Assembly: GCA_022072445.1 (NCBI GenBank)
Contig: JAJVHV010000023.1
Coordinates: 62,001 to 126,000, forward strand
Source of the DNA: Phycisphaerae bacterium
GTDB lineage: Bacteria > Planctomycetota > Phycisphaerae > UBA1845 > Fen-1342
Reading direction: 5' to 3'
Length of the DNA: 64,000 bases
Every line of letters starts with the position of its first letter. Position 1 is the stretch's first letter. The notes below the pieces were generated by a model. The model saw nothing but the letters and a program-made list of their open reading frames with translations, was not told the DNA's origin and did not search any database. Shown here in pieces: positions 34,201 to 48,171 of this stretch. A program made the position numbers and the translations under genes.

Positions 34201-34272
34201 ACTCGCGTGCGGGGTTCTGGCAGGCGTTCTTGGCGGCGGGTCAACGACGGCCGTAACCCGCCCTACTCGCGC

Positions 34273-34430
34273 GTGGCCACGGGGGGCCTACGCTACGGCA
34301 AACAACGTGGCCACGGAGGGCCTACGCTACGGCAAACAACGTGGCCACGGAGGGCCTACGCTACGGCAAACAACGTGGCCACGGAGGGCCTACGCTACGG
34401 CAAACAACGTGGCCACAGAGGGCCTACGCG
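34273..34430. repeat. 34-bp tandem repeat array running into a gene's 3' end
   Basis: Four complete 34-bp units start at 34273, 34307, 34341 and 34375, each GTGGCCACGGAGGGCCTACG plus CTACGGCAAACAAC; the first differs by one base. A partial fifth unit (34409-34430) overlaps the stop codon of the - strand trans-sulfuration gene. GTGGCCAC is palindromic. Related words (GTAGCG-nGGCC-nCCGTGGCCACG) recur at 48308-48370. Confidence 0.85.
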
Positions 34431-35656
34431 ACGGTGGCGCGGAGCGCCTGTTCCAGGTCGGCGATCAGGTCACTCGCGTCCTCGATTCCCACGCTCAACC
34501 GCACCAGCCCGTCGACGATGCCGATCTGCTCGCGGATCTCGCGCGGCACGGACGCGTGCGTCATGATGGCCGGATGATTCACGAGCGACTCGACGCCACC
34601 CAGGCTCTCGGCGCAGGCGAAAAGCCTCGTCGCGGCCATGAATCGCGACGCGGCGCGGAGCCCGTCCTTGAGCACGCACGTCACCATGCCGCCGAAGCCC
34701 GACATCTGCCGCGCCGCCAGCGCGTGCTGCGGATGCGATTCGAGGCCGGGATAGATGACGCGCGAAAACGCCTTCTGGCCGAGCGCCCAGCGCGCGACCG
34801 CCGCCGCGTTCTCGCAATGCTGGCGCATGCGGATGTGTAGCGTCTTGATGCCGCGATGCGTCAGGAAGCAGTCGAACGGCCCGGGAACGCCCCCGGCCGC
34901 ATTCTGCGTAAATCGGATCGGATCGAGCACCGCCTGATTGGCGGCGACGACGGCGCCGCCGACCACGTCCGAATGGCCGCCGAGATATTTCGTGGTGCTG
35001 TGCAGCACCAGATCGGCGCCCAGCGCGATGGGCTGCTGCAGGGCCGGACTGGCGAACGTGTTATCGACCACCAGCACGATGCCGTCGTGACGCGCCGGCG
35101 GCACTCCCGGTGCCGCAGCAATCGCTTTCAGCGCGGCCGGCGTTCCCATCCCCAGCCGTCGCTCGGCTTCACGCACGCCGCGGGAGATCGCCTGAATATC
35201 CAGCAGATGCAGCATGGGGTTCGTCGGCGTCTCGATCCAGACCAGACGCGTGGTCGCGTCGATCAGGCCGATCAACGCCGCCGGGTCGGTGCTTCCCGTG
35301 TAGCGCGTCTGAAGGCCCCAGGGCTTGAAGACCCGCTCGAAGAGCCGAAACGTGCCGCCATAAAGATCGTTGTAGGCTACGATCGACTCTCCCGGCCGCA
35401 GGAGCGAAGTGATGATGGCCGAGGTCGCGGCCAGCCCGGACGCGAAGCAGGCGGCCGCCTGACCGCCCTCCAGAGCGGCGAGGCACTCCTGCAAGCCGGT
35501 GCGCGTTGGGTTATGCGTGCGCGAGTATTCGTAACCGCGGTGCTCGCCGGGGGCGGTCTGCGTGTAGGTGCTGGTGACGTAGATCGGGGGAACGGTAGCA
35601 CCGGTGGTGGGATCGGGCGCCTGACCGACGTGAATCGCGCGCGTGGCGAAGTTCAT
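34424..35656 (-). CDS. Cys/Met metabolism PLP enzyme (cystathionine gamma-synthase/lyase family)
   Basis: 410 residues from ATG 35656. FATRAIHVGQAPDPTTGATV, YEYSRTHNPTR and LEGGQAAACFASGLAA are family landmarks; the PLP lysine is K223 in LHSTTKYLGGHSD, with VLVVDNTFASP ahead of it. The enzyme takes part in trans-sulfuration (cystathionine synthesis or cleavage, or a related homoserine reaction); the family does not separate these by sequence alone. About 20 extra residues (REAERRLGMGTPAALKAIAA onward) lie just before VVDNTF where relatives have a short loop. The stop codon overlaps the last unit of a tandem array. Confidence 0.9.
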   Translation of the reverse strand: MNFATRAIHVGQAPDPTTGATVPPIYVTSTYTQTAPGEHRGYEYSRTHNPTRTGLQECLAALEGGQAAACFASGLAATSAIITSLLRPGESIVAYNDLYGGTFRLFERVFKPWGLQTRYTGSTDPAALIGLIDATTRLVWIETPTNPMLHLLDIQAISRGVREAERRLGMGTPAALKAIAAAPGVPPARHDGIVLVVDNTFASPALQQPIALGADLVLHSTTKYLGGHSDVVGGAVVAANQAVLDPIRFTQNAAGGVPGPFDCFLTHRGIKTLHIRMRQHCENAAAVARWALGQKAFSRVIYPGLESHPQHALAARQMSGFGGMVTCVLKDGLRAASRFMAATRLFACAESLGGVESLVNHPAIMTHASVPREIREQIGIVDGLVRLSVGIEDASDLIADLEQALRATVA

Positions 35657-36222: not shown

Positions 36223-39200
36223 TCAGCGCCCCGCGGCGTACATCGGCAAGTAGCGGTAGTAGACTTCGAGCATCAGCGTGCAGAGCGCGGTCTGATAGAC
36301 GCGACCACCCACGTTGGCCCACTCGCCGTCGGGTGGCCAGCTTCCGGTCTCGCGTCCGTCGGACTCCTGGTGCGCGAGCAGCTCGCGCGTCACGTGCGAG
36401 TTCCAACGCGTCCACGCCTCCCCCTGCTGATGAAACAGCGTCAGCGTCGCGTAGTACCAGTAGTACGTGTTCGTCTCGTCTTCCCAATTCGGCGGATGCT
36501 GCAGCAGCAGCGCTGTGCCGGCCCGTTCGCGGGACTCGTCGCGCAGCGCGCCGCACAGCAGCCGCGCGAACATGCCCTCCGCCGTCATGGCCGGCGTCGG
36601 ACGCCGGTCCGGCCGGTAGCGATACAGCCCCGGCTCGCTCTCGCTGCTGACCCGATCGAGCCAGGCGTCGGCCGTGCGAAAGACTTCGTCCGGCACGTCG
36701 ACGCCCGCGACCCGCGCGCTCTTGAGCGCCATCACCTGCCAGCCGAAGACGGACGTGTCACCCGACATGCCGGGTTCGTAACGCCAGCCGCCGTACTGAT
36801 TCCGGCCGGCCAGAATGAACTCCACGGCGCGCACGACCGGCGTTTGGAGCTGCGCGTCGCGCGTCATGGCCAGTGCCTCGGCCAGCGCGATCGTCGCGAT
36901 ACCCTGGCTATACATCGTCTCGCCGCCCCGCAGGTCGCCGTTAGCCTCCTGCCGTGCCAGCAGCGCGGCCAGCCCGCGCCTCACGGTCGTCTGGTAGGGT
37001 CCGGCCTTGGCGTGCGTGTGGTCGGCGCCGAGAAAACAGAGCAGCGCCAATCCGGTCAGCGCGGTGTCGATGTCGGCGCCGGTCTCGCTGACCCATCCGC
37101 CATTGGGCCGCTGCTGCCGCGCCAGCCACGCCAGCGCGGAGGCGACCGCCCGCTCGGTCCTGTCGTCGCCGCCCTGACGCTTCAGGATTCCCTCGCGCTG
37201 CTCGGGCTGACGCTGCACGAACGCGCCGGCGGGCGGCGTGGTCTCGCTGGGCAGCGCCAGGCCGGCGGGGAGTTGGCTGGGCGCGAGCTTGGTGAGCGGC
37301 GTGGGCGGCGACGGCGACCGTGTTTCGACGCCGCGCGCGTCGCGCACACGGGCGATCTCGCGCGGCAGCGCCGCCGCAACGCCGACCACGGAAGCGGGCG
37401 GCTCCGGCCGCGTCTCGAACAGGCCGGGACGCTCTCGGCCGGCCAGCGCGGCCGGCGCGGGAGCAGCCGGAGATTCGGGCGGGCGCGCCGCGAGCGCGAG
37501 TTCGGCAGTTTCGGACGCCGCCGTGGCTGCCGGCGCGTCGGCGCTCGGCTCGTCGGCGGGCGGAAGTGCCACGCGGTCGAGCGGTTGCACGGACGGCAGG
37601 CGTGCCGCGGCTGACGCGCTGCGCGGTGCCGCCACGTCCGCGGCCAACTCGACGCGTGCCTCGGCCGGCCGGATTTCGCGGAGCGCGTTTGCGTCGGCCC
37701 TGGTGTCGACGACAGGAAGTTCGGAAGCAGCCGGCGCGATCGTGGCCAGACGAACACCCGTCGGAGCGTTGTCCCGTGGCAGAGATTCGGCATGTGGCAG
37801 CGCCACGTCGTTCGACGCCGCGATCGCCGGCGAAGACTCCGGAGGCGCGGGCTGCGGCGGTGCGCTCTCGCTCGGCAGCGCTGCATCCGTCAACGGACGC
37901 GCTCTGACCACCGTCGGCGCGGCGTCGGGAAGCAGCGATGACGTCGATTGCGTCGCGTCGGCCGGCCCCGCGGCACTCAAGCTCACGTCGACGCGCGGGC
38001 CGTCCGACTGTGGCGCGGTGCGCGGCGCCATTGCAACCACGCGTGCCGCCGGCTGTGACGTGGAGAATGCGACCTCGGGGTGGTCTCGATCATAGTCGGC
38101 GACCGCGTTCATCGGTGCCGGCGACGCCGCCACTGGTTCCGCAGTGTCGATCGCAGCGCGCTCGGCCGGCAGCGCCACGTCAGCCGACGGCGACGCGGGC
38201 GGCGCCGGAGCGACCGCCGCCAGCAGCGGGGCCGGCGGTGCGGCCGACTCGACGACGCTGGGCGTCACGGCCGGACTGGCCGGATCGGGAAGCTGCATCG
38301 TCGGCGTCGTCACAAGCAACTCGGGCGCCGCGGCCTCCGGCTCCGGCAGCGGCATTTCGGCGGCGATGGTCGCCGCGACCGCGGGAGGCGCCACGTCAGT
38401 CACGTCGCCGCGAATTTGCGCCACGATGTCGCCCGCGCCGGCCGACGCGAGGCTAACCTGAATCGGCGGCCGGCGGCCCGCGGCGCCGACGATGGCACCC
38501 GCGACGCCCCAGAATGTGAAGAGCAGCAAGAGCAGCGCGTGCGCCAGAAGCGACGCGAGCAGGCAGCGCGCCAGCAGGCTCAGCTTCTTGTCGCGCACCG
38601 CCTGCAGGAAAAAGAGCGCCGCGAGCAGCAGCAGCAGCGCCAGCAGCGCGAGCAGAAGATAGGGCAGCGCTTGTCGCCAGAATGCCGCCCAATCGAAAGG
38701 ACTCCGCTCGGTCTCGCTGAAGACCTCGCGCGATGCGGTGTGAAACACGCGGTACGGGTTGGGCCGGGCCGCATCGATCCGCTCGGCCGGCCGGTTCGAA
38801 CTGAAGAACAGCCCGAATCCGCCCATCGTCAGGGCCGGATCAAGCTCGTTGGCCGCCGTGTTGATGCTCGCGCCGAGGTTCTCCGGCGGTCGCAGCTCGC
38901 CGCGCAGCCGCCGCGTGCGGTAGAGATCGTAGCCGCCCAACCCGCCGGGCCGATCCGAGCCGAAGTACAGAAAGTCGCCGGCGGGACTGATGCACGGGGC
39001 GCCCTCGTTGAAGGGCGTATTGAGGGCCTGCAGCGCCGCGGCCGGCGCGAATCCGGCCTCGCCGAGCTCGGCGCTGTAAAGATCGTACGTGCGGACGAAG
39101 CGCTCTTCGCGCAGCGTCGCGGGCCAGGCGTCGGGGTTCGGCTGGCGCACGTCCTGTGGCGTCGGGCGGTTCGACGCGAAGTAGAGCGTGCGGGCGTCGG

Positions 39201-39747
39201 GCGCCAGAGCCGGACCATAGTCGTTGAACTCGGAGTTGACGGCCGGACCGGCATTCTGCGGCGACTGCCAGCCGTCGGGACCGCGGCGGCTGACCCAGAT
39301 GTCGTAGCCGCCGGCGCCGCCCGGCCGATCGCTGTAGAAGTAGAGTGTGCGGCCGTCGGCCGAGGGCTCGGGGCCGAGCTCGTCACATTCCGAGTTCAGC
39401 GCCGCGAGCGGCTCGGGCTGCGACCAGCCCGCGAAGCTCCGCGCCGTGACGAAGATCTCGGCGTTTTCGCCGGCCTTGCCGCGCACGAAGTAGAGCGTCA
39501 GGCCGTCCCACGAGAGCCGCGGCTCGTAAGCGTCGCCGGCGGAATTGATCAGCTCGGCAAGGCCGACGGGCGGCTGCCAGAGCACGTCGCGCACCCGCGC
39601 TTCGCGGCGGACGACCTTGATCGTGTCGGCGTCGGTCAAAAACGTCTGGCGCGCCGGCGAGAAAAGCCAGAGCCCCAGACACGCGATCGACGCCACGACC
39701 GCCACTGATGCGAGAATCAGGATCGTCCTGCCGTATTGCTTGAGCAC
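36223..39747 (-). CDS. Composite TolB-propeller / TonB-like transducer / toroid protein, 1,174 aa
   Basis: Four parts are visible. (1) Helix at about 9-29, then five PD40 blades as in TolB (TLYFYSDRPGG, LYFASNRP, FLYFGSDRPGGLGGYD). (2) Two helices at about 360-385 and 395-420; the second contains S399-L-L-A-H403, the SxxxH signature of TonB and TolA helices that engage ExbBD/TolQR. (3) A Pro/Ala-rich linker of about 430 residues (430-860), as in TonB but longer. (4) A C-terminal domain (about 860-1174) of repeated helices with GGW turns (QQRPNGGWVSE, QYGGWRYEPG), resembling terpenoid-cyclase/prenyltransferase toroids and not the TonB C-terminal domain. It lies 18 bp after exbD and starts at GTG. 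I infer a motor-driven envelope protein with a peptidoglycan- or outer-membrane-side toroid. Confidence 0.75.
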   Translation of the reverse strand: MLKQYGRTILILASVAVVASIACLGLWLFSPARQTFLTDADTIKVVRREARVRDVLWQPPVGLAELINSAGDAYEPRLSWDGLTLYFVRGKAGENAEIFVTARSFAGWSQPEPLAALNSECDELGPEPSADGRTLYFYSDRPGGAGGYDIWVSRRGPDGWQSPQNAGPAVNSEFNDYGPALAPDARTLYFASNRPTPQDVRQPNPDAWPATLREERFVRTYDLYSAELGEAGFAPAAALQALNTPFNEGAPCISPAGDFLYFGSDRPGGLGGYDLYRTRRLRGELRPPENLGASINTAANELDPALTMGGFGLFFSSNRPAERIDAARPNPYRVFHTASREVFSETERSPFDWAAFWRQALPYLLLALLALLLLLAALFFLQAVRDKKLSLLARCLLASLLAHALLLLLFTFWGVAGAIVGAAGRRPPIQVSLASAGAGDIVAQIRGDVTDVAPPAVAATIAAEMPLPEPEAAAPELLVTTPTMQLPDPASPAVTPSVVESAAPPAPLLAAVAPAPPASPSADVALPAERAAIDTAEPVAASPAPMNAVADYDRDHPEVAFSTSQPAARVVAMAPRTAPQSDGPRVDVSLSAAGPADATQSTSSLLPDAAPTVVRARPLTDAALPSESAPPQPAPPESSPAIAASNDVALPHAESLPRDNAPTGVRLATIAPAASELPVVDTRADANALREIRPAEARVELAADVAAPRSASAAARLPSVQPLDRVALPPADEPSADAPAATAASETAELALAARPPESPAAPAPAALAGRERPGLFETRPEPPASVVGVAAALPREIARVRDARGVETRSPSPPTPLTKLAPSQLPAGLALPSETTPPAGAFVQRQPEQREGILKRQGGDDRTERAVASALAWLARQQRPNGGWVSETGADIDTALTGLALLCFLGADHTHAKAGPYQTTVRRGLAALLARQEANGDLRGGETMYSQGIATIALAEALAMTRDAQLQTPVVRAVEFILAGRNQYGGWRYEPGMSGDTSVFGWQVMALKSARVAGVDVPDEVFRTADAWLDRVSSESEPGLYRYRPDRRPTPAMTAEGMFARLLCGALRDESRERAGTALLLQHPPNWEDETNTYYWYYATLTLFHQQGEAWTRWNSHVTRELLAHQESDGRETGSWPPDGEWANVGGRVYQTALCTLMLEVYYRYLPMYAAGR

Positions 39748-39765: not shown

Positions 39766-40179
39766 TCATTCGATGGGAATAGTGTCCAGGAACGGCTGCT
39801 GCACGCCGGCGTGCTTGCAGATGTCCAGCGCGCGGGCCACCTTTTCGTAGGCCGCCGATCGATCGCCGCGGATCGCCACCTTCTGCTCCGGATTGGCGGC
39901 GACCGCCTCGCGCACGAGTGCGTCCAGCTCTTCGGGCGCCAGGGTCCGGCTGTTGACGATGATCCGCCCGTCGGCGTCGACGTTGACGACAATCTCGCGC
40001 AGCGCCGCGCTGAGCGGGCCGGCGGCCCGCGCCTCGGGCAGCGCGATCTGCATCTCGCGCTCGATCTGCTGAAAGCTCGACGCGACCAGAAAGAAAATCA
40101 GCAGGTTGAACACCGCGTCGATCATCGGCGTCATGTCGAGCGCCAGTGCGTCGGTTTCGGCGGGTACTTTCAGTAGCAT
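39766..40179 (-). CDS. exbD: ExbD/TolR biopolymer transport protein
   Basis: 137 residues from ATG 40179. The single N-terminal helix contains the essential Asp (LDMTPMIDAVFNLLIFFLV), followed by a periplasmic domain (REIVVNVDADGRIIVNSRTL; VAIRGDRSAAYEKVARALD) typical of ExbD/TolR. It is part of the proton channel that energises TonB- or TolA-type partners. The gene is 18 bp downstream of exbB and 18 bp upstream of the composite 1,174-residue protein. Confidence 0.92.
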   Translation of the reverse strand: MLLKVPAETDALALDMTPMIDAVFNLLIFFLVASSFQQIEREMQIALPEARAAGPLSAALREIVVNVDADGRIIVNSRTLAPEELDALVREAVAANPEQKVAIRGDRSAAYEKVARALDICKHAGVQQPFLDTIPIE

Positions 40180-40197
40180 GGCGGGCTCGCAGAGCAA

Positions 40198-40998
40198 TCA
40201 GGCCGGCACCGGCAGACCAGGGGGCGTTTCGGCCCGCTGCTCGCCTGTCAGCGGGCGCGCGACGAGCGCGTCGTGCGGCGTCGCGCTCTCGTGCGTCACG
40301 CCCTTCGGCCGGGCAAACTCGTCGATGAAATCGACCGTCAGACGGTCCATCTCAGCCACCAGGTGCTCGACCCGCGAGGAGAGGCCGTGATAGGCGATGA
40401 TGACCGGAATGGCGACCATCAGCCCGGCCGCCGTGGTGATGAGCGCTTCATAAATGCCCTTGGCGAGCAGTTCGGTCTTTCCCAACGCTTCGCCCGACGC
40501 GGCGACGGTCTGAAACGCGGTGATCATCCCCAAGATCGTGCCCAGCAGACCCAGCAGCGTCGACACCGACGCGACCACCGAGAGCAGCCGCAGATAACGC
40601 CGCAGCTTGAAGATCTCGCGTTCACCCGCTTCGGTGATGTGCTTTTCGAGCAGTTCCACCGGCTCGCCCAGCCGCCGGATGCCCTCGGCCACGATCGCCG
40701 CGATCGGACTGCCGTCCTTCTCGCAGTGGTCGAGCGCCCGCCGGCGGTCGACGCGCATGTGCTCGCGAAGACCGGCCAGAAAGCCCGGCGGGATGATCCG
40801 CACCCGCCGCAGGCTGATGGCCCGCTCCACGATCACCGCCAGCGCGATCAGCGAGCAGATGCCGATCGGAACCATGATCGGACCGCCCTTGACCACGAAA
40901 TCCCAGACCGAGGTGACGCGCACCGCGGACTTCGCGGCGTCGGCGGCCGGCGCCTGTCCGAGTATGCCGGATGCGGCTATCGTCATGAGCGTTAGCAT
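40198..40998 (-). CDS. exbB: ExbB/TolQ/MotA-type proton channel protein
   Basis: 266 residues from ATG 40998 (AGGAG ten bases upstream; the frame reaches GTG 41040). An N-terminal hydrophobic signal-like helix (1-24) precedes three ExbB helices: one at about 37-57 (GGPIMVPIGICSLIALAVIV), one in VVASVSTLLGLLGTILGMI and one in ITTAAGLMVAIPVIIAYH, with the conserved polar residues of the pore. With ExbD it forms the motor complex that uses the proton gradient. A longer N-terminus than E. coli ExbB resembles the planctomycete/bacteroidete variants. Confidence 0.92.
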   Translation of the reverse strand: MLTLMTIAASGILGQAPAADAAKSAVRVTSVWDFVVKGGPIMVPIGICSLIALAVIVERAISLRRVRIIPPGFLAGLREHMRVDRRRALDHCEKDGSPIAAIVAEGIRRLGEPVELLEKHITEAGEREIFKLRRYLRLLSVVASVSTLLGLLGTILGMITAFQTVAASGEALGKTELLAKGIYEALITTAAGLMVAIPVIIAYHGLSSRVEHLVAEMDRLTVDFIDEFARPKGVTHESATPHDALVARPLTGEQRAETPPGLPVPA

Positions 40999-41108
40999 GC
41001 AGCGTTCACTCCTCGCGGCCCCTTCCGCCGCTCTGTTCACAACCTCGATGCTTCAATCGCACGCGCGGTGCGGCGGAGCGCCGGGCGACGCCGCGGGACG
41101 ATTTCGAC

Positions 41109-44100
41109 CTAGGGCGCCCGCCCGGGCGGAGCCGCGGCAGACAGCGCACTGATCCGCTCGCGAGCCGGCGCGGCCCACTTCGTGTCGGCGTACTTTTCGG
41201 TCACCGACTTGAACTGCGTCCGTGCTTCGACCGGTTTGCCGAGCTTCTCAAAGCAGCGTCCGGCCTCGAACAACGCCGCGGCGCTCCACTCCGGATACGC
41301 ATACAGAATGTCCACCTTCAGCAGCTCGCGCGCCGCCTCGTCGTGCCGCTTCAGCGCGAAGAGGCATTCGCCGATCTGAAACTGCGCGCGGGCCGCGGTC
41401 GGACCCTTGTGCCGCTCGGCGACGGCCCGGTACGCCTGAATCGCGTCTTCGTGCCGCGCCTGATTCTCCAGCGCCCAGCCCACGCCGAACTGCGCCTGAT
41501 ACCAGTGCTCAGCGTCGCGGAATTCGTCGAGATAGCCGCGGAACGCCTCTTCGCTCCGCGCCCACTTCTGCCCGCCCGCGAGACTCTCGCCCAGCCGCAG
41601 CAGGCAGACCGCGCGGGCTGGATCGGACGGGAACTCGGCGATCACGCGCTCGAGCAGCTTGGCGGCCGCGTCGAACTGGCCCAGCCGGCAGCGGCACTCG
41701 CCCGCCAGCGCCAGCGCGGAGCCCAGCAGCGCGCTTTTCGGAAACTCTTTCGCGAAAGTCTCGAACTGCCGCGCCGCCTCCGCCGCGCGCCCCGCGTCAT
41801 ACTCGCACACCGCCAGCCGGTACGCCGCCGTCTCGCGCAGGCTGGCCGGCACGGCGTCGGGCGCTTGCGCGGCCAGCTCGCGGACGCGACGCAGGAGCTG
41901 GCGCGCCGCGTCGTAGTCCTTGGCCTGTGCCTCCAGCTCGGCGAGCTCGACCAGCGCGTGCGGCAGGGATTCACCACCCGCGCCAGCTTCGACCAGGCGC
42001 CGATATTCCGCCCGCGCGTCGCCATTCTTGCCGAGCTTCCGTAGACACCATGCTTTTTCGTAGCACAGCCGCGCCGCCGACGCCGGACTTTGCCGGCCGG
42101 CGAACTCGCGCTCGGCGCGCGCGATGAGATTCAGCGCGTCCTGCGGCTTGTCGAGGCGCGCCAGCGCCGAGACAAGCTGCACCGCGGCCGCCGGCGCGTC
42201 GTTGTGCGTCGGATGCTGCTTGAGGAACTGTTCGAGGTCGCCGGCCGCCTCGGCGAAGAGCCCCTGCCCCAGCCGCGCCTGACCGCGACGCAGCAGCGCG
42301 TCGGCCGACGCCTCCCCGCCGACGTCCGCCGCCAGCATGCTGTCGTAGATCTTCGTCGCCGCCGCGTAGTCCTTGCGGCGCATGGCCAGCGTGGCCAGAT
42401 GTTCGCGCGCGTGCCGGGCGAATTCCGAGTCGGGCGCCTCGGCCGCCACCCGCTCGAAACACCCCTGGGCCTCGGCGTCCTTGTCCAGCGACAGCAGCGC
42501 CTGGCCGCGCTCGAATTGCGCCGCCAGCCGGTTGGGCGAGTCGGCGAAGTCCGCCAGGAGCTTGTCCAGCGCCCGAAGCGCCTCGGCGAATCGTCCCTGC
42601 CGCATCCGCACCAGGCCCAGCCGCAGCAGTGCGTCATCGACGCCCGGAACCGACCGCGCAGCCTGGACGTACCGCGCCAGAACCTCCTCCGCGGCCTTCC
42701 ACTCGCCGCGGCGGAACAGCACGTCGCCCAGCGACGCCTGCGCCGCCTGCGACAACTCCGTGTCCTTCGTCGATTCGATCACCGCCTCGAGCAGCGGCCG
42801 GGCCTCGTCCAGCTTCTCCAACCGATAAAGCGACATCGCCAGACGAAAACGTGCACTCGGCACGCGGCTGTCGTCGCTGAAACGCTCGATAAACGCCCGG
42901 AACGCATCCGCCGCGGGTTGAAATCGGCCGGCCAGGAACTCACTCTCCGCGGCGAGAAACGCGACACCCGCGGCCTGCTTGCCGTCCGGGTTCTTCGCCA
43001 GCAGCGCGCTGCTGTAGCGCTGCACGGCGTCGACGTTCTTCTGCTCGTGAGCGGCGACGATCGCAAGCTGCAGCGCGTCAGCCGCCAGCCGGTGCTCGCC
43101 GAAGCGCGACAGGAACGCCTCCACGGCCTGGAGCGCTTCCTTCGCCGCGCCGCTGCGGTTCAGCGCCACCGCGCAGTCGTACTGCATCTCGGGCTGAAGC
43201 TCGCTGTCGGGGAACTTCCGGATGGCCGCCCGCAGCAGCTCGACGGCCAAGGCAAAGTTGTCGCGCCGCAGCTCGCACTTGCCGCACCAGTACGCGGCGT
43301 CGTCCGCCAGCGTCACGTCGTCGGGCGCCACCGCGGCAAACATCTCAGCGGCGCGCTCGATCTGCCCCGTCTCGAACCAGGCCCGCGCCCGCAGAAAACG
43401 CGCCAGCCGCGCCAGCGGATGCTCGCCGTGACTCTTGAGCATCTGGTCGAGCAAGGCGGCGGATTCCTTGAACTGCTTCAAATCCTGCATCACGCCCGCC
43501 GCACCCACCAGCGCCTCGGGAGCGAAACGCGCCGCCGGCGATTTCAATGCCGCGCTGTACGTTTCGAGCGCCTTTTCAGGCTTTCCCAGCCGGTGATAGC
43601 ACTGCGCCAGGAGAATCCGGCCGTGCTCGGCGACGGGGTCATCCGGCGAGCCAGCCAGCAGCTCAGACAAGCGGCGGGCGGCGGCCTCATCCTGGCGAGA
43701 CGCCACCTCGCTGAGCGCCGCGCCATACTCCACGCGCGGCCGCAGCGGACTAGCAGCCCACTTTTCCGCGAACTCGCCCGCCAGCCGCACGACCTCGTCG
43801 TGCTTGCCGGCCGATTGCAGGGCTTCGCACAACGCCGCCGAGGCGTCGTCGGCCAGCTCATGGTCCGGAAAGCGTTTCAAGACGCGCCGCAGCGTCGCCT
43901 GCGCGTCGTCGATCCGACCGATTGCGACCTGGCACTGCGCCAGAATCGTCTCCGCCTCCGCCGCAAACGCGAACCTGTCGATACCCGCGACGCTGGCGAG
44001 CAATTCGGCGGCCTCGGCGGGCTTCTCCATGCGATAGAGGCAGACGCCCAGACCGTAGCGCGCCGTCGGCGCCTTGTCGTGCTTGGGATAGGCAGCCAGA

Positions 44101-44306
44101 AACTTGCGATAGTCCGTGGCGGCCATCTCAAACAGACCGCGCTGCAGCAGCCCGTTGGCGCTGAGATAGTCGCGCAGCTCGCCGGCCGCCGGCTCCGACT
44201 GTGCCTGAATCGTCGCGGCCCACGCCTCTCCGCCCGTCACGCCGCCCAGCCACAGACCGCCCAGCACGGCACCAACGGTGAACAGCATCCCGCATCGATC
44301 CATCAC
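41109..44306 (-). CDS. Secreted TPR-repeat protein, 1,065 aa, part of ExbBD locus
   Basis: Signal peptide (about 1-30, AWA|AT) and then roughly 25 tetratricopeptide-like repeats across the whole length (for example LLQRGLFEMAATDYRKFLAA, then YGLGVCLYRMEKPAEAAELL), as in YbgF/CpoB but far longer; the last repeat ends near LKSVTEKYADTKWAAPARER. Such periplasmic TPR proteins regulate Tol-Pal or cell-wall enzymes, so a role as adaptor of the downstream ExbBD-TonB-like complex fits. It follows the M56 gene by 123 bp and precedes exbB by 110 bp. The start could be the second Met (44303). Confidence 0.8.
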   Translation of the reverse strand: MMDRCGMLFTVGAVLGGLWLGGVTGGEAWAATIQAQSEPAAGELRDYLSANGLLQRGLFEMAATDYRKFLAAYPKHDKAPTARYGLGVCLYRMEKPAEAAELLASVAGIDRFAFAAEAETILAQCQVAIGRIDDAQATLRRVLKRFPDHELADDASAALCEALQSAGKHDEVVRLAGEFAEKWAASPLRPRVEYGAALSEVASRQDEAAARRLSELLAGSPDDPVAEHGRILLAQCYHRLGKPEKALETYSAALKSPAARFAPEALVGAAGVMQDLKQFKESAALLDQMLKSHGEHPLARLARFLRARAWFETGQIERAAEMFAAVAPDDVTLADDAAYWCGKCELRRDNFALAVELLRAAIRKFPDSELQPEMQYDCAVALNRSGAAKEALQAVEAFLSRFGEHRLAADALQLAIVAAHEQKNVDAVQRYSSALLAKNPDGKQAAGVAFLAAESEFLAGRFQPAADAFRAFIERFSDDSRVPSARFRLAMSLYRLEKLDEARPLLEAVIESTKDTELSQAAQASLGDVLFRRGEWKAAEEVLARYVQAARSVPGVDDALLRLGLVRMRQGRFAEALRALDKLLADFADSPNRLAAQFERGQALLSLDKDAEAQGCFERVAAEAPDSEFARHAREHLATLAMRRKDYAAATKIYDSMLAADVGGEASADALLRRGQARLGQGLFAEAAGDLEQFLKQHPTHNDAPAAAVQLVSALARLDKPQDALNLIARAEREFAGRQSPASAARLCYEKAWCLRKLGKNGDARAEYRRLVEAGAGGESLPHALVELAELEAQAKDYDAARQLLRRVRELAAQAPDAVPASLRETAAYRLAVCEYDAGRAAEAARQFETFAKEFPKSALLGSALALAGECRCRLGQFDAAAKLLERVIAEFPSDPARAVCLLRLGESLAGGQKWARSEEAFRGYLDEFRDAEHWYQAQFGVGWALENQARHEDAIQAYRAVAERHKGPTAARAQFQIGECLFALKRHDEAARELLKVDILYAYPEWSAAALFEAGRCFEKLGKPVEARTQFKSVTEKYADTKWAAPARERISALSAAAPPGRAP

Positions 44307-44429: not shown

Positions 44430-47400
44430 TCAACGCACTTCGGTGTCGGTCGATTCGGACTTCTCGGGCTGCTCTTCCCCATCGGCGTCATCGCTATCGT
44501 CGCCATCGGCCGAATCGGCAGCGTGATCGCCACCGGCGCGGGCCGCCGCCTCCGCGAGCAGGCGGAGGATCGTCGCCGACGCCTGCGGGTCGTCGCCACG
44601 GCTGGCCTGCAGCAGCGCGCGAAGCTGATCGGTGTTCCCGCCCTGTTCGACGCTGCGAAGCAGAGCAGCAATCGAATCCTTCGAGACCTCGTCCTGCCCA
44701 GCGCGGAACGCATCGAGAAGCGCCTTTTGCGTCTCGTCATCCGCGCGACACCTGTACGCCTCCAGCATCGCGCGCGTCGCCGCCGTGTCTGCCTCCCAAC
44801 TCTGCGCGAGCTCGGCGGCGCGCAGCGCCTCAAGGCCGCCAGCCTCCTGGCTGAGCTGGAAAGATTGCGCCGCCAGAAGGGCGTTGGCGTAGGCCAGCTC
44901 CGCGTCGGCCTCACTGTCGCCGCGCAGCGAGCGGGCGGCGCCTTCGATCGTGTCGGCGTCTGCTTCCATTGCATCGGCACGCCGTTCAAAGTCCTCCGCC
45001 GCGCGTTCGAGCTCGGCGGCGCGCTGCTCGAGCGCCCGGGCGTGCTCTTCCATCTCGCGGGCCCGCGCTTCCAGCGTGTCGGCCTGCGCGCGTGCCGCGT
45101 CTTCATCGCGCTCGCGGGCGCTGTTGGCCCGCTCGAACATGCGCGCCGCACGCTCGTTGAGTTTGCCGACCTCGCGCTGCAGCTTCTCCATCTCGCGCTG
45201 GACGTCGCGCGCCTGGTTCTCCATCTCGTGAGAATGATCGCGCTGCCGCTCGGCCATCAGCTCCAGGGCTTCGCGCGTCGGGGCCGCGATCACCGCTTGC
45301 GGCAGCAGGGCGACATCGGGCGAGCTCGGCTCGTCAACGGCCGACGCACCCCGTCCCTCCGGGTGAATCATGTCGACAAACGCCTTGAAGATGCGGTGCT
45401 GCCGCTCCGTGGCGTGCACCTCGATGCCGTCGTCCTTGGGAGCGACTCTCACCGGAACGTCTTCGCGAACCATGAGCGCGCCCAGCGCCTCGGCCTTGCC
45501 TTCCGGCAGCGGATAGAACCGCACGATGATGCCATCGCCGCCTTCAGGTTCCGGCACAGCGATCGCCGGTCCACCCGGCGCCATGCCGCCGCCGCGCGGC
45601 GCCGCCCCCGGATATGGCGTCCGCCCAAACATGGGCGCCGCCGGCGGTGCGGGCGTAGTCGGGGCGCCAGGAGCCATACCGCCGAACGGGCCGAAGGGCG
45701 GCGTGGGTTGCGGCGCCGAACGGGCGGCCCTGCCCGGACGAAGACCCGCTCCGCCTCCCGCTCCACCGAACACGCCCCACGACGTTTGCCCGGTCATGCG
45801 CTCCAGCCGTTCGGCGATCTCCTCCAACCGCCGCTCGACACGCGACAACCGCTGCTCGACGTCGTCTCCGCCGCCGGCGTAGGTCACCGCGACGACCGGC
45901 GACCTGCGCGTCATGGCGACGGGCGGAGACGACACGTTTCGACGGACGTTGATCGGAACGGGCAGTCCGGCCGCCGTTTCCTGCGCCGCAACCGGCGCGG
46001 CGGCCTGAGCGCACTCGGTCGCGGCCACCGCCGCCGTGCTCTTGCACTTGTCGTCGTCGCCCGTCGCCCAGGCCGGCGTCACGATCCACGCCGCTCCCAT
46101 CAAGCCGATCGCGAGCGCCATCCCCGCAATGGATGATCCCGGTCGCGTGTTCTGAGTCATCACCATGGTCAGTCTCCTTGCAAAGCGTCGAGCCCGGCCC
46201 GACGTCATTCCAATCGCCAGCTCCGGCAGCCCGCCGGCCGGTCGCGAAAGATAGTCCTTCGTGCGCAGCAGGGCCTCGGCGTACGATCGCCGCCCCTGCG
46301 GTAGCAGCCACATCACCCACGCGTCACAACACAACTCCGCCTCCTCATGCAGCCGCCAGCGCACCATCCACAGCACCGGATGCCACCAGAAGAGGCTCAG
46401 AGCCAACAGCTCAACCCAGCGCACCCAGTGGTCGCGCCGCCGCAGATGCGCCAGCTCGTGCGACACGATCGCCCGGCGGCTCAGCTCGTCCATCGAGTCC
46501 CACAAACCACTTGGAAGAATCAGCCGCACCGGCCGGCCCGACCAGATCATCGGCGGAACGCGCCGCCGCACCATCCACACCTCCGGCGCGGCCGAGAGTC
46601 CCATGGCACGGCTGACGTCGGCGACCAGCCGGCGAGTTTCCGCCGACCCACGCTGTGCGGTTTTCAGGATGCGCCGGAATGACGCAAGTTGAATCAGCAC
46701 GGCGAGCCCGACGGCGCCCAGACCGACGCACCAGACCGCTGGCGGCAGCGCCGGCAACCGTCCGATCGCGTCGCGCACGCCCACCAGCGCGGTCAACCAG
46801 TGATCGGCAAACTGCGCGAGTGCGGCCCGAAGCGAGCGCCACTCATCCGACACACCTCGCATCGTCGCCGACCCGCGGCGTCCGGCATCCACGTCGGGCT
46901 CAGCGCGTGCCGCCGCGGCGCTGCTCGCGACGAGCGTTTCGACCCGCTCAAGATCGCGCTGCGTTGCCGCTACTGCCTCGGCCGACGAAGACAACAGTGG
47001 TGTTTCCGGGGTTTCGCGACGGCGCGCCGGCGTCGAACGCATGACTTCGCGCGGGGTTAGGCGCGGGAACGCCCGCGCCAGCCACGCGGGCGGACCCACC
47101 GCGGACGATGGCTCGCGAGCCTCACGCTGCCAGACGTATGCCGCCGTCGGCGCGATCTCGTGCGAATCGTGCCCGCCCGAGCTCGGTGCTGGAGCCAAGA
47201 CGTGCCGCTCGGTGCGGGCACTTCGGCTATAGGATCCGCTACTCGCGCCGCCGCCGCGCGCCGCTCCCGCGGGCGCACTCGTGCCGGCCGCGGGCTCTCC
47301 CGGCACCCACACGTCAGGCGGGAGGCGCGGCTCGGGTATTGCCGCGGCCAGCGACGCGCCGGAATGCCGAGGAACGTCGCGCGCGGCTGCGTTCGGCGGC

Positions 47401-47708
47401 AGCAGAGCCGGTGGCGCTTCCTCGCGCGCCACGACGCCGCCCGCGTTCACCCGCACCATCGGGCCGGCGGCAGCCGGCTGCGGCTCGGGCGGCTCAGACG
47501 CCCGGCCTGCCTGCAGTGCACCCGGCCACTGAAAAGTCGGCAGCACCACTGGCGCGAGAAACCAGAGTAGGACAAGCAGCCACAGCGAATGCCGCGTCGC
47601 GGGGCGCCGGGCGATCCATCGGCAGGCGAGCGCGACGAGCACGGTCAGCGGGACGACGGCCAGCGCATTACGCCATAGCAGGTCCGTCGTGAGCGAAGCC
47701 CAGGTCAT
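44430..47708 (-). CDS. M56 family metallopeptidase (BlaR1-type sensor), 1,092 aa
   Basis: Membrane helices at about 14-32, 41-60, 320-340, 437-458 and 525-548 surround a zinc peptidase with H417-E-L-A-H421 (IVSHELAHLRRRDHW) and the following HEEAELCCDAWVM, as in BlaR1. The long periplasmic/loop segment (about 60-315) is Pro/Ala/Ser-rich. The C-terminal half is not a penicillin-binding domain: it has a short coiled coil (VEQRLSRVERRLEEI), a Gly/Pro-rich stretch, a secretin-N-like module (RFYPLPEGKAEALGALM) and a ~110-residue coiled coil (about 830-935). By family, ligand sensing activates the peptidase, which leads to cleavage of the BlaI repressor encoded 15 bp upstream; the ligand is unknown. 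Confidence 0.85.
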   Translation of the reverse strand: MTWASLTTDLLWRNALAVVPLTVLVALACRWIARRPATRHSLWLLVLLWFLAPVVLPTFQWPGALQAGRASEPPEPQPAAAGPMVRVNAGGVVAREEAPPALLPPNAAARDVPRHSGASLAAAIPEPRLPPDVWVPGEPAAGTSAPAGAARGGGASSGSYSRSARTERHVLAPAPSSGGHDSHEIAPTAAYVWQREAREPSSAVGPPAWLARAFPRLTPREVMRSTPARRRETPETPLLSSSAEAVAATQRDLERVETLVASSAAAARAEPDVDAGRRGSATMRGVSDEWRSLRAALAQFADHWLTALVGVRDAIGRLPALPPAVWCVGLGAVGLAVLIQLASFRRILKTAQRGSAETRRLVADVSRAMGLSAAPEVWMVRRRVPPMIWSGRPVRLILPSGLWDSMDELSRRAIVSHELAHLRRRDHWVRWVELLALSLFWWHPVLWMVRWRLHEEAELCCDAWVMWLLPQGRRSYAEALLRTKDYLSRPAGGLPELAIGMTSGRARRFARRLTMVMTQNTRPGSSIAGMALAIGLMGAAWIVTPAWATGDDDKCKSTAAVAATECAQAAAPVAAQETAAGLPVPINVRRNVSSPPVAMTRRSPVVAVTYAGGGDDVEQRLSRVERRLEEIAERLERMTGQTSWGVFGGAGGGAGLRPGRAARSAPQPTPPFGPFGGMAPGAPTTPAPPAAPMFGRTPYPGAAPRGGGMAPGGPAIAVPEPEGGDGIIVRFYPLPEGKAEALGALMVREDVPVRVAPKDDGIEVHATERQHRIFKAFVDMIHPEGRGASAVDEPSSPDVALLPQAVIAAPTREALELMAERQRDHSHEMENQARDVQREMEKLQREVGKLNERAARMFERANSARERDEDAARAQADTLEARAREMEEHARALEQRAAELERAAEDFERRADAMEADADTIEGAARSLRGDSEADAELAYANALLAAQSFQLSQEAGGLEALRAAELAQSWEADTAATRAMLEAYRCRADDETQKALLDAFRAGQDEVSKDSIAALLRSVEQGGNTDQLRALLQASRGDDPQASATILRLLAEAAARAGGDHAADSADGDDSDDADGEEQPEKSESTDTEVR

Positions 47709-47723
47709 TCCCCGTCACTCCAA

Positions 47724-48131
47724 TCAGGGGTTGGTACGTTTGGTCCTGGAATCCAGCCGGTCAATCAGTTTCTGTAACTCGCCCAGTTCGTCGGGTGTGA
47801 GCGTTTCGGAGCGCACGAGCTGAAGCACGAGCGGGCCCGCCGCTCCGTCGTAGAGCTGTGTGAGCAGGCTCCGCAGCCGCGAGCGGCTGACCCGCTCGCG
47901 CGAGACCGTCGCGCGGTAGACGTACGCCAGGTCCCTGCGGTCGCTCTTGGCGACGCCCTTCTGCTCCAGGCGCGTCAGGAACGTCTGCACGGTCGTGTAC
48001 GCGACGTGACGGCCGTGGCTCCGCAGGTAGTCGAGCACCTGCCGAACCGTGGCGCTGCGCAGCTCCCACAGGGCCCGCAGCACTTCGAGCTCCGCGTCAC
48101 CCATCTCGTATTCGCGTTCGCGCTCAGCCAT
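47724..48131 (-). CDS. blaI: BlaI/MecI family winged-helix repressor
   Basis: 135 residues from ATG 48131 (AAAGG six bases upstream). The winged helix reads MGDAELEVLRALWELRSATV, QVLDYLRSHG, AYTTVQTFLTRLEQKGVAK, followed by the wing and a dimerisation part (LVRSETLTPDELGELQKLID). BlaI-type proteins bind dyads in their own promoter and are cut by the BlaR1 partner; the cleavage linker is expected around residue 80-105. Only 15 bp separate it from the M56 gene, so the two are cotranscribed. Confidence 0.93.
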   Translation of the reverse strand: MAEREREYEMGDAELEVLRALWELRSATVRQVLDYLRSHGRHVAYTTVQTFLTRLEQKGVAKSDRRDLAYVYRATVSRERVSRSRLRSLLTQLYDGAAGPLVLQLVRSETLTPDELGELQKLIDRLDSRTKRTNP

Positions 48132-48171
48132 CGCAACCTTTCGCAGACCCGCCACGCGGCCCGGTACCCGA

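Follow-up and report, generated by a model that had tools for sequence, protein, structure and literature searches.

A putative proton-motive-force-driven transducer with an internal TonB/TolA-type helix and an exchangeable end domain in Phycisphaerae

A gene on the minus strand of a 64,000-nucleotide stretch of a Phycisphaerae bacterium genome (assembly GCA_022072445.1, contig JAJVHV010000023.1, positions 62,001 to 126,000; this whole stretch is termed the window) most likely encodes a periplasmic force transducer driven by the proton motive force (PMF), apparently an undescribed variant akin to TonB, TolA and the vWA force transducers. The 1174-residue protein (GTG start in the list of open reading frames, ORFs) is encoded immediately downstream of exbB and exbD and carries the SxxxH motif of TonB and TolA in an internal transmembrane (TM) helix. 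An N-terminal anchor is followed by a propeller, a second and a third TM segment, the latter with SxxxH, a 430-residue arm and a toroid, as judged from hydropathy and structure models. The arrangement of the protein, its operon and the conservation reported below are read directly from sequence; the folds come from high-confidence predictions. The AlphaFold2 model of residues 1-450 has a mean predicted local distance difference test score (pLDDT) of 86. Scanning genome contigs with 11 aligned full-length homologues yielded 80 loci.

36223..39747, minus strand: force-transducer candidate gene (ORF, Pfam/NCBIfam, 80 homologous loci)
39661..39744, minus strand: TM1, N-terminal anchor, residues 2-29 (hydropathy, model helix)
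38716..39594, minus strand: PD40 beta-propeller, residues 52-344, five blades by strand count (Pfam PD40 1.5e-27, model, PDB propeller matches)
38596..38691, minus strand: TM2, residues 353-384 (hydropathy, model)
38476..38577, minus strand: TM3, putative motor-docking helix, residues 391-424 (model, one conserved helix face)
38539..38553, minus strand: S399-LLA-H403, SxxxH (Ser conserved in 70/73, His in 71/73)
38443..38463, minus strand: D-box-like IQVSLAS, residues 429-435, H+26 (pattern and enrichment; definition in PMC10907165)
37183..38472, minus strand: Pro/Ala-rich linker, residues 426-855 (composition)
36232..37170, minus strand: alpha/alpha toroid, residues 860-1172 (model pLDDT 92.9; squalene-hopene cyclase Z 27.4)

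Much of this layout had been recognised in the initial annotation. Its SxxxH pattern in a hydrophobic helix, the membrane helix at residues 395-420 (TM3 spans 391-424 in the model), the linker of about 430 residues (24% Ala and 17% Pro over residues 426-855), the position directly downstream of exbD, which is itself preceded by exbB, and the toroid in place of a TonB C-terminal domain all stood up. What it lacked were TM1, TM2 directly before the SxxxH helix, and the D-box-like strand.

A putative motor-docking helix followed by a D-box-like strand

S399-LLA-H403 is the sole SxxxH in the whole protein and is located in the cytoplasmic half of TM3, inside a segment (388-424) that is hydrophobic by hydropathy. 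Of 73 divergent homologues, 70 have Ser at position 399, while position 403 is occupied by His in 71 and by Asn in 2, which makes the two positions the top two of the 101 alignment positions examined (352-452). Loci L087 and L129, in which the propeller end was miscalled, were excluded from these counts; SxxxH is present in both. In TM3, conservation is concentrated on a single helix face (moment 6.8, compared with 1.1 for TM2). Throughout the family TM2 and TM3 are joined by a basic loop, from which the positive-inside rule predicts that TM3 runs from the cytoplasm to the periplasm, like the helix of TonB and TolA. None of 16 toroid proteins from the same and related genomes that lack an adjoining motor (no ExbB/ExbD match nearby) has SxxxH in a hydrophobic helix.

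Substitutions at the two positions are rare. L130 and L133, both from Planctomycetaceae, have Asn for the motor His in a protein that is otherwise similar, and L133 still has ExbB and ExbD upstream. L124 and L127 keep the His and have Ala for the Ser of SxxxH.

In TonB, a strand behind the TM helix, the D-box, with the pattern hydrophobic-polar-hydrophobic-polar-hydrophobic-hydrophobic-polar, is captured by the ExbD dimer (PMC10907165). It begins at H20+25 in E. coli TonB (QPISVTMVTPAD, residues 43-54). IQVSLAS, at H403+26 of the transducer, is an exact match to this pattern. Allowing a relaxed pattern, 51 of 75 homologues match between H+22 and H+32, as do 13% of equal-width windows farther along the linkers; for the strict pattern the figures are 12 of 75 and a background of 4%. 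The commonest offset in the homologues is exactly 26. The pattern is thus supportive of a TonB-like capture, but falls short of proof.

Operon and motor genes

From 5' to 3', the operon consists of genes for BlaI, a BlaR1-type M56 protease, a TPR protein, ExbB, ExbD and the transducer. Those upstream of the transducer are, starting from the nearest:

39766..40197, minus strand: ExbD/TolR with putative proton-carrying Asp27 (Pfam ExbD 4.9e-27; D27 in 75/75)
40198..41040, minus strand: ExbB/TolQ with S63, T168, T203 and P212 (MotA_ExbB 1.5e-29; conservation)
41109..44306, minus strand: TPR protein, YbgF/CpoB-like repeats, 1065 aa (TIGR02795 9.1e-94)
44430..47708, minus strand: BlaR1-type M56 metalloprotease with a long C-terminal coiled-coil-like region (Pfam M56 2.2e-23)
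47724..48155, minus strand: BlaI-type repressor (Penicillinase_R 2e-30)

The gap between exbD and the transducer gene is 18 bp, with a median of 13 bp across homologous loci, and TPR, ExbB and ExbD matches precede the transducer in 48 of the 49 loci that offer at least 8.5 kb of upstream sequence. Residues of the motor are strictly or almost strictly kept: besides D27 of ExbD, these are the pore threonines T168 and T203 of ExbB (each 73/73) and P212 (72/73). ExbB S63, conserved in 73/73, was aligned by hand with S34 of E. coli ExbB, which together with W38 contacts S16/H20 of TonB in the cryo-EM structure (PMC12215075).

A tandem 34-bp repeat (CGTGGCCACGGAGGGCCTACGCTACGGCAAACAA) lies near the operon at 34272-34434, and a similar-looking array is found beside a toroid paralogue on another contig (L002 3138-3756).

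A predicted five-bladed propeller, by sequence nearest to PorE

The propeller model has a pLDDT mostly above 90, and counting its strands gives five blades. The top PDB hits in Foldseek were TolB (E 2e-11), while VIA-align ranked GH43/GH62 propellers, which are five-bladed, first (Z about 20) and gave TolB a Z of 17.8, all matches spanning Z 17.8-20.3. A profile of the N-terminal part matched no PDB chain by sequence. Among NCBIfam models, that for PorE of the type IX secretion system (T9SS) came nearest (1.1e-36), its 126 bits lying under the cut-off of 600. The TolB family model TIGR02800 also remained under its cut-off (E=0.038), and Pfam gave no TolB_N match up to E=1, the propeller being preceded merely by TM1 and a short stretch. 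On these grounds classical TolB was rejected as the family. The initial annotation's "TolB-like" thus holds for the fold and fails for the family: the transducer shares the PD40 propeller with TolB and differs in having no TolB_N and five instead of six blades, in being tethered to the membrane and in being fused to an arm.

The similarity to PorE raises an alternative, namely a T9SS- or gliding-type machine in which the PorE-like propeller, the TPR protein and the carboxypeptidase-regulatory-like domain (CRD) of the relatives scaffold a secretion or surface-motility apparatus that the motor rotates or drives, with no arm being pulled. The T9SS also runs on a PMF motor. PorE (PG1058) combines TPR, a five-repeat propeller, CRD and an OmpA-like domain (PMC5053529), the first three of which all occur in the transducer family, where TPR is a separate gene and CRD is confined to relatives. 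However, PorE is an outer membrane lipoprotein with a peptidoglycan-binding OmpA-like domain and has neither motor helix nor toroid, whereas Pfam found no OmpA-like domain in the transducer. The PorE score also falls far below its cut-off, there are no T9SS genes among the operon genes (the genome itself was not searched for them), and SxxxH, D-box-like strand and linker are all features of a TonB/TolA-type arm. We therefore regard a T9SS-type machine as unlikely.

The toroid is one of at least two end domains

The model of residues 860-1172 is an alpha/alpha toroid of high confidence (pLDDT 92.9, predicted template modelling score 0.92), and its best VIA-align match in the PDB is squalene-hopene cyclase 2sqc (Z 27.4 over 284 residues, 3.0 A). 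As a single sequence, it scored 1e-4 and 21.9 bits against SQHop_cyclase_C, under the Pfam cut-off of 26.1; the family profile, however, matched squalene-hopene cyclase with an E-value of 3.6e-17, which bears out the terpenoid-cyclase-like toroid for which the initial annotation had proposed an HMM search. With squalene-hopene and other type II terpene cyclases it shares the fold and QW-like repeats; it differs from them in comprising a single toroid, in its predicted periplasmic location and in the catalytic DxDD, which occurs in only 3 of 45 family toroids, at unrelated positions. The transducer's own DIDT is not DxDD.

Most of the homologous toroids have a Cys-rich loop, FDxxCGxCxG, before a VDxALTG helix; this loop has been lost in the transducer (toroid start, 37170-37000, residues 860-915). 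Relatives comprising only the toroid (L045-L060) measure about 355-860 aa, and many of them bear a single hydrophobic segment at the N-terminus; they are frequent in these genomes and have no adjoining motor gene.

Almost all of the 80 loci stem from metagenome-assembled genomes of Phycisphaerae or other Planctomycetota, the exceptions being one labelled Lentisphaerae and one Pedosphaera. In an even draw across the phylum, the N-terminal module was present in 22 of 294 genomes. The complete homologues differ in their end domains: the toroid stands alone in 26, the transducer's type; it is accompanied by CRD and a beta-sandwich-like domain in 21; and CRD/beta-sandwich occurs without toroid in 18. 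CRD refers to a Pfam match here, and "beta-sandwich" is a reading of the sequence. No separate toroid gene was found among the ORFs of the fetched loci of toroid-less homologues. On a tree of the propeller-TM part, the CRD-only label requires 10 changes, at least four of them by well-supported branches. These changes, set against the conserved chassis, indicate that handle and propeller are constant and the end domain is variable. As judged from these comparisons, the toroid is one of at least two exchangeable ends. Terpene synthesis was rejected as the toroid's main role, because DxDD is not conserved and some family members do without a toroid.

The same evidence bears on a further explanation, that the protein is an enzyme or a glycan or lipid binder of the envelope, anchored in the inner membrane, whose TM hairpin merely co-localises with ExbBD and whose conserved His serves helix packing. 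The toroid fold is common to terpene cyclases and many sugar-active enzymes, and the propeller resembles those of GH43/GH62. Yet DxDD is not conserved, the toroid may be wholly absent while TM3 and operon remain, and the motor-less toroid relatives have no SxxxH. We rank this explanation below the T9SS-type machine and consider it improbable.

BlaI/BlaR1 as a candidate regulator

BlaI lies directly before the M56 gene in 33 of the 34 loci that permit the test, and a Pfam scan recognised no penicillin-binding sensor domain in the M56 protein. Both observations would suit a sensor and an operon that is mainly a signalling circuit, with ExbBD and M56 passing on to BlaI the force or ligand binding registered by toroid and propeller. 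This is very improbable, however, as pairs of the BlaI/BlaR1 type commonly regulate the operon in which they lie, and the deeper loci L124, L127, L128, L131, L133, L135 and L136 retain motor and arm but lack a listed M56 match.

Other motors and transducers in the same genome

The host genome has three MotA/ExbB genes: the operon copy, one beside an OmpA-family gene, which is probably part of MotAB, and one in a vWA cluster. The latter (L147, G000 contig C23, 6845-9811) encodes a 357-residue vWA protein with a GSLVFH helix, ExbB and two different ExbD proteins. Since it matches the layout published for vWA transducers (PMC12204202), it serves as an internal positive control. A search for TonB_C over the whole assembly gave no match, although the controls from E. 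coli, Caulobacter and Bacteroides were positive; a TonB_C protein elsewhere in the genome that would make the transducer redundant was thus looked for and not found. The genome does encode one TonB-dependent receptor (L148, G000 contig C28, 7627-9705).

Discussion

Several observations weigh against assigning a TonB/TolA-like function to the protein. In the SHLS signature, Leu and Ser occupy H+7 and H+11; in the transducer these are F410 and G414, and across the family H+7 is L/F/M and H+11 is mostly charged or polar. The helix is internal, behind TM1, propeller and TM2, unlike in TonB and TolA, and two homologues have Asn in place of the His. The Trp equivalent to E. coli ExbB W38 is not kept, Leu being usual, so that the His contact must differ in detail from that in E. 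coli. Finally, the D-box pattern is missing from about one third of the homologues, and in its strict form from most. With no TonB_C or TolA C-terminal domain (Pfam), an internal helix and half of SHLS missing, the transducer is by definition neither TonB nor TolA, yet it most likely works like them. It shares with them SxxxH in a TM helix, a candidate D-box-like strand at nearly equal distance, a Pro-rich arm, although a very long one, and ExbBD/TolQR neighbours. We thus consider it probable that the transducer is the force-transducing arm of a PMF motor.

The nearest relatives by design are the vWA force transducers described by Williams-Jones et al. (2025, PMC12204202) for Planctomycetes-Verrucomicrobia-Chlamydiae (PVC) bacteria, where a linker connects an SHLS helix to a vWA domain at the end. 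Common to both are an SHLS-type TM helix, a flexible linker, an end domain other than that of TonB, and TPR and tolQ/tolR neighbours. The window protein, in contrast, has no VWA match in Pfam and ends in a toroid, its relatives in toroid and/or CRD plus beta-sandwich; its helix is preceded by the propeller and two additional TMs, its locus has a single exbD instead of the two of vWA loci, and BlaI-BlaR1 lies upstream. The literature searched, which left most subscription papers and preprints outside, held nothing nearer. The unusual architecture claimed by the initial annotation is therefore uncharacterised in that literature, but combining a motor helix with an end domain other than that of TonB is no novelty as such, this sister kind having been described in 2025. 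Its description as a fusion of Tol-Pal and Ton components is apt for the TonB/TolA-like helix and linker and overstates the Tol side, given the lack of TolB_N, the nearer PorE and the five blades.

In the mechanism that we propose, ExbB and ExbD would form an inner-membrane motor running on the proton gradient, and TM3 would dock on ExbB via S399/H403. The strand 429-435 might be captured by the periplasmic ExbD dimer in the fashion of the TonB D-box. The Pro/Ala arm would then transmit force across the periplasm, presumably by pulling, to the toroid, which may grip an envelope partner in the form of outer membrane, peptidoglycan or polysaccharide. Held between TM1 and TM2 on the periplasmic side of the inner membrane, the propeller could serve as a platform for docking, with the TPR protein as a possible partner, and BlaI/BlaR1 may induce the operon in response to stress on the cell wall or envelope. 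A more far-reaching version, which we put forward only tentatively, is an undescribed, planctomycete-centred PMF-driven trans-envelope machine that combines propeller platform, TonB-type handle, arm with exchangeable end and BlaI/BlaR1 stress switch and does the job of Tol-Pal.

A propeller before the motor helix and an exchangeable end on a long arm suggest that bacteria have a branch of envelope force machines that has not been described. If this is true, the docking helix of TonB and TolA is a general plug-in handle that evolution can attach to unrelated end domains and also place mid-protein. Little is understood of how planctomycetes maintain their envelope, and they would gain a candidate for a force machine, together with its operon, a defined residue pair and a suggested stress regulator. 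After the vWA transducers described in 2025, this would be the second kind of end domain unlike that of TonB, which implies that the inventory of PMF-driven envelope machines is probably still far from complete.

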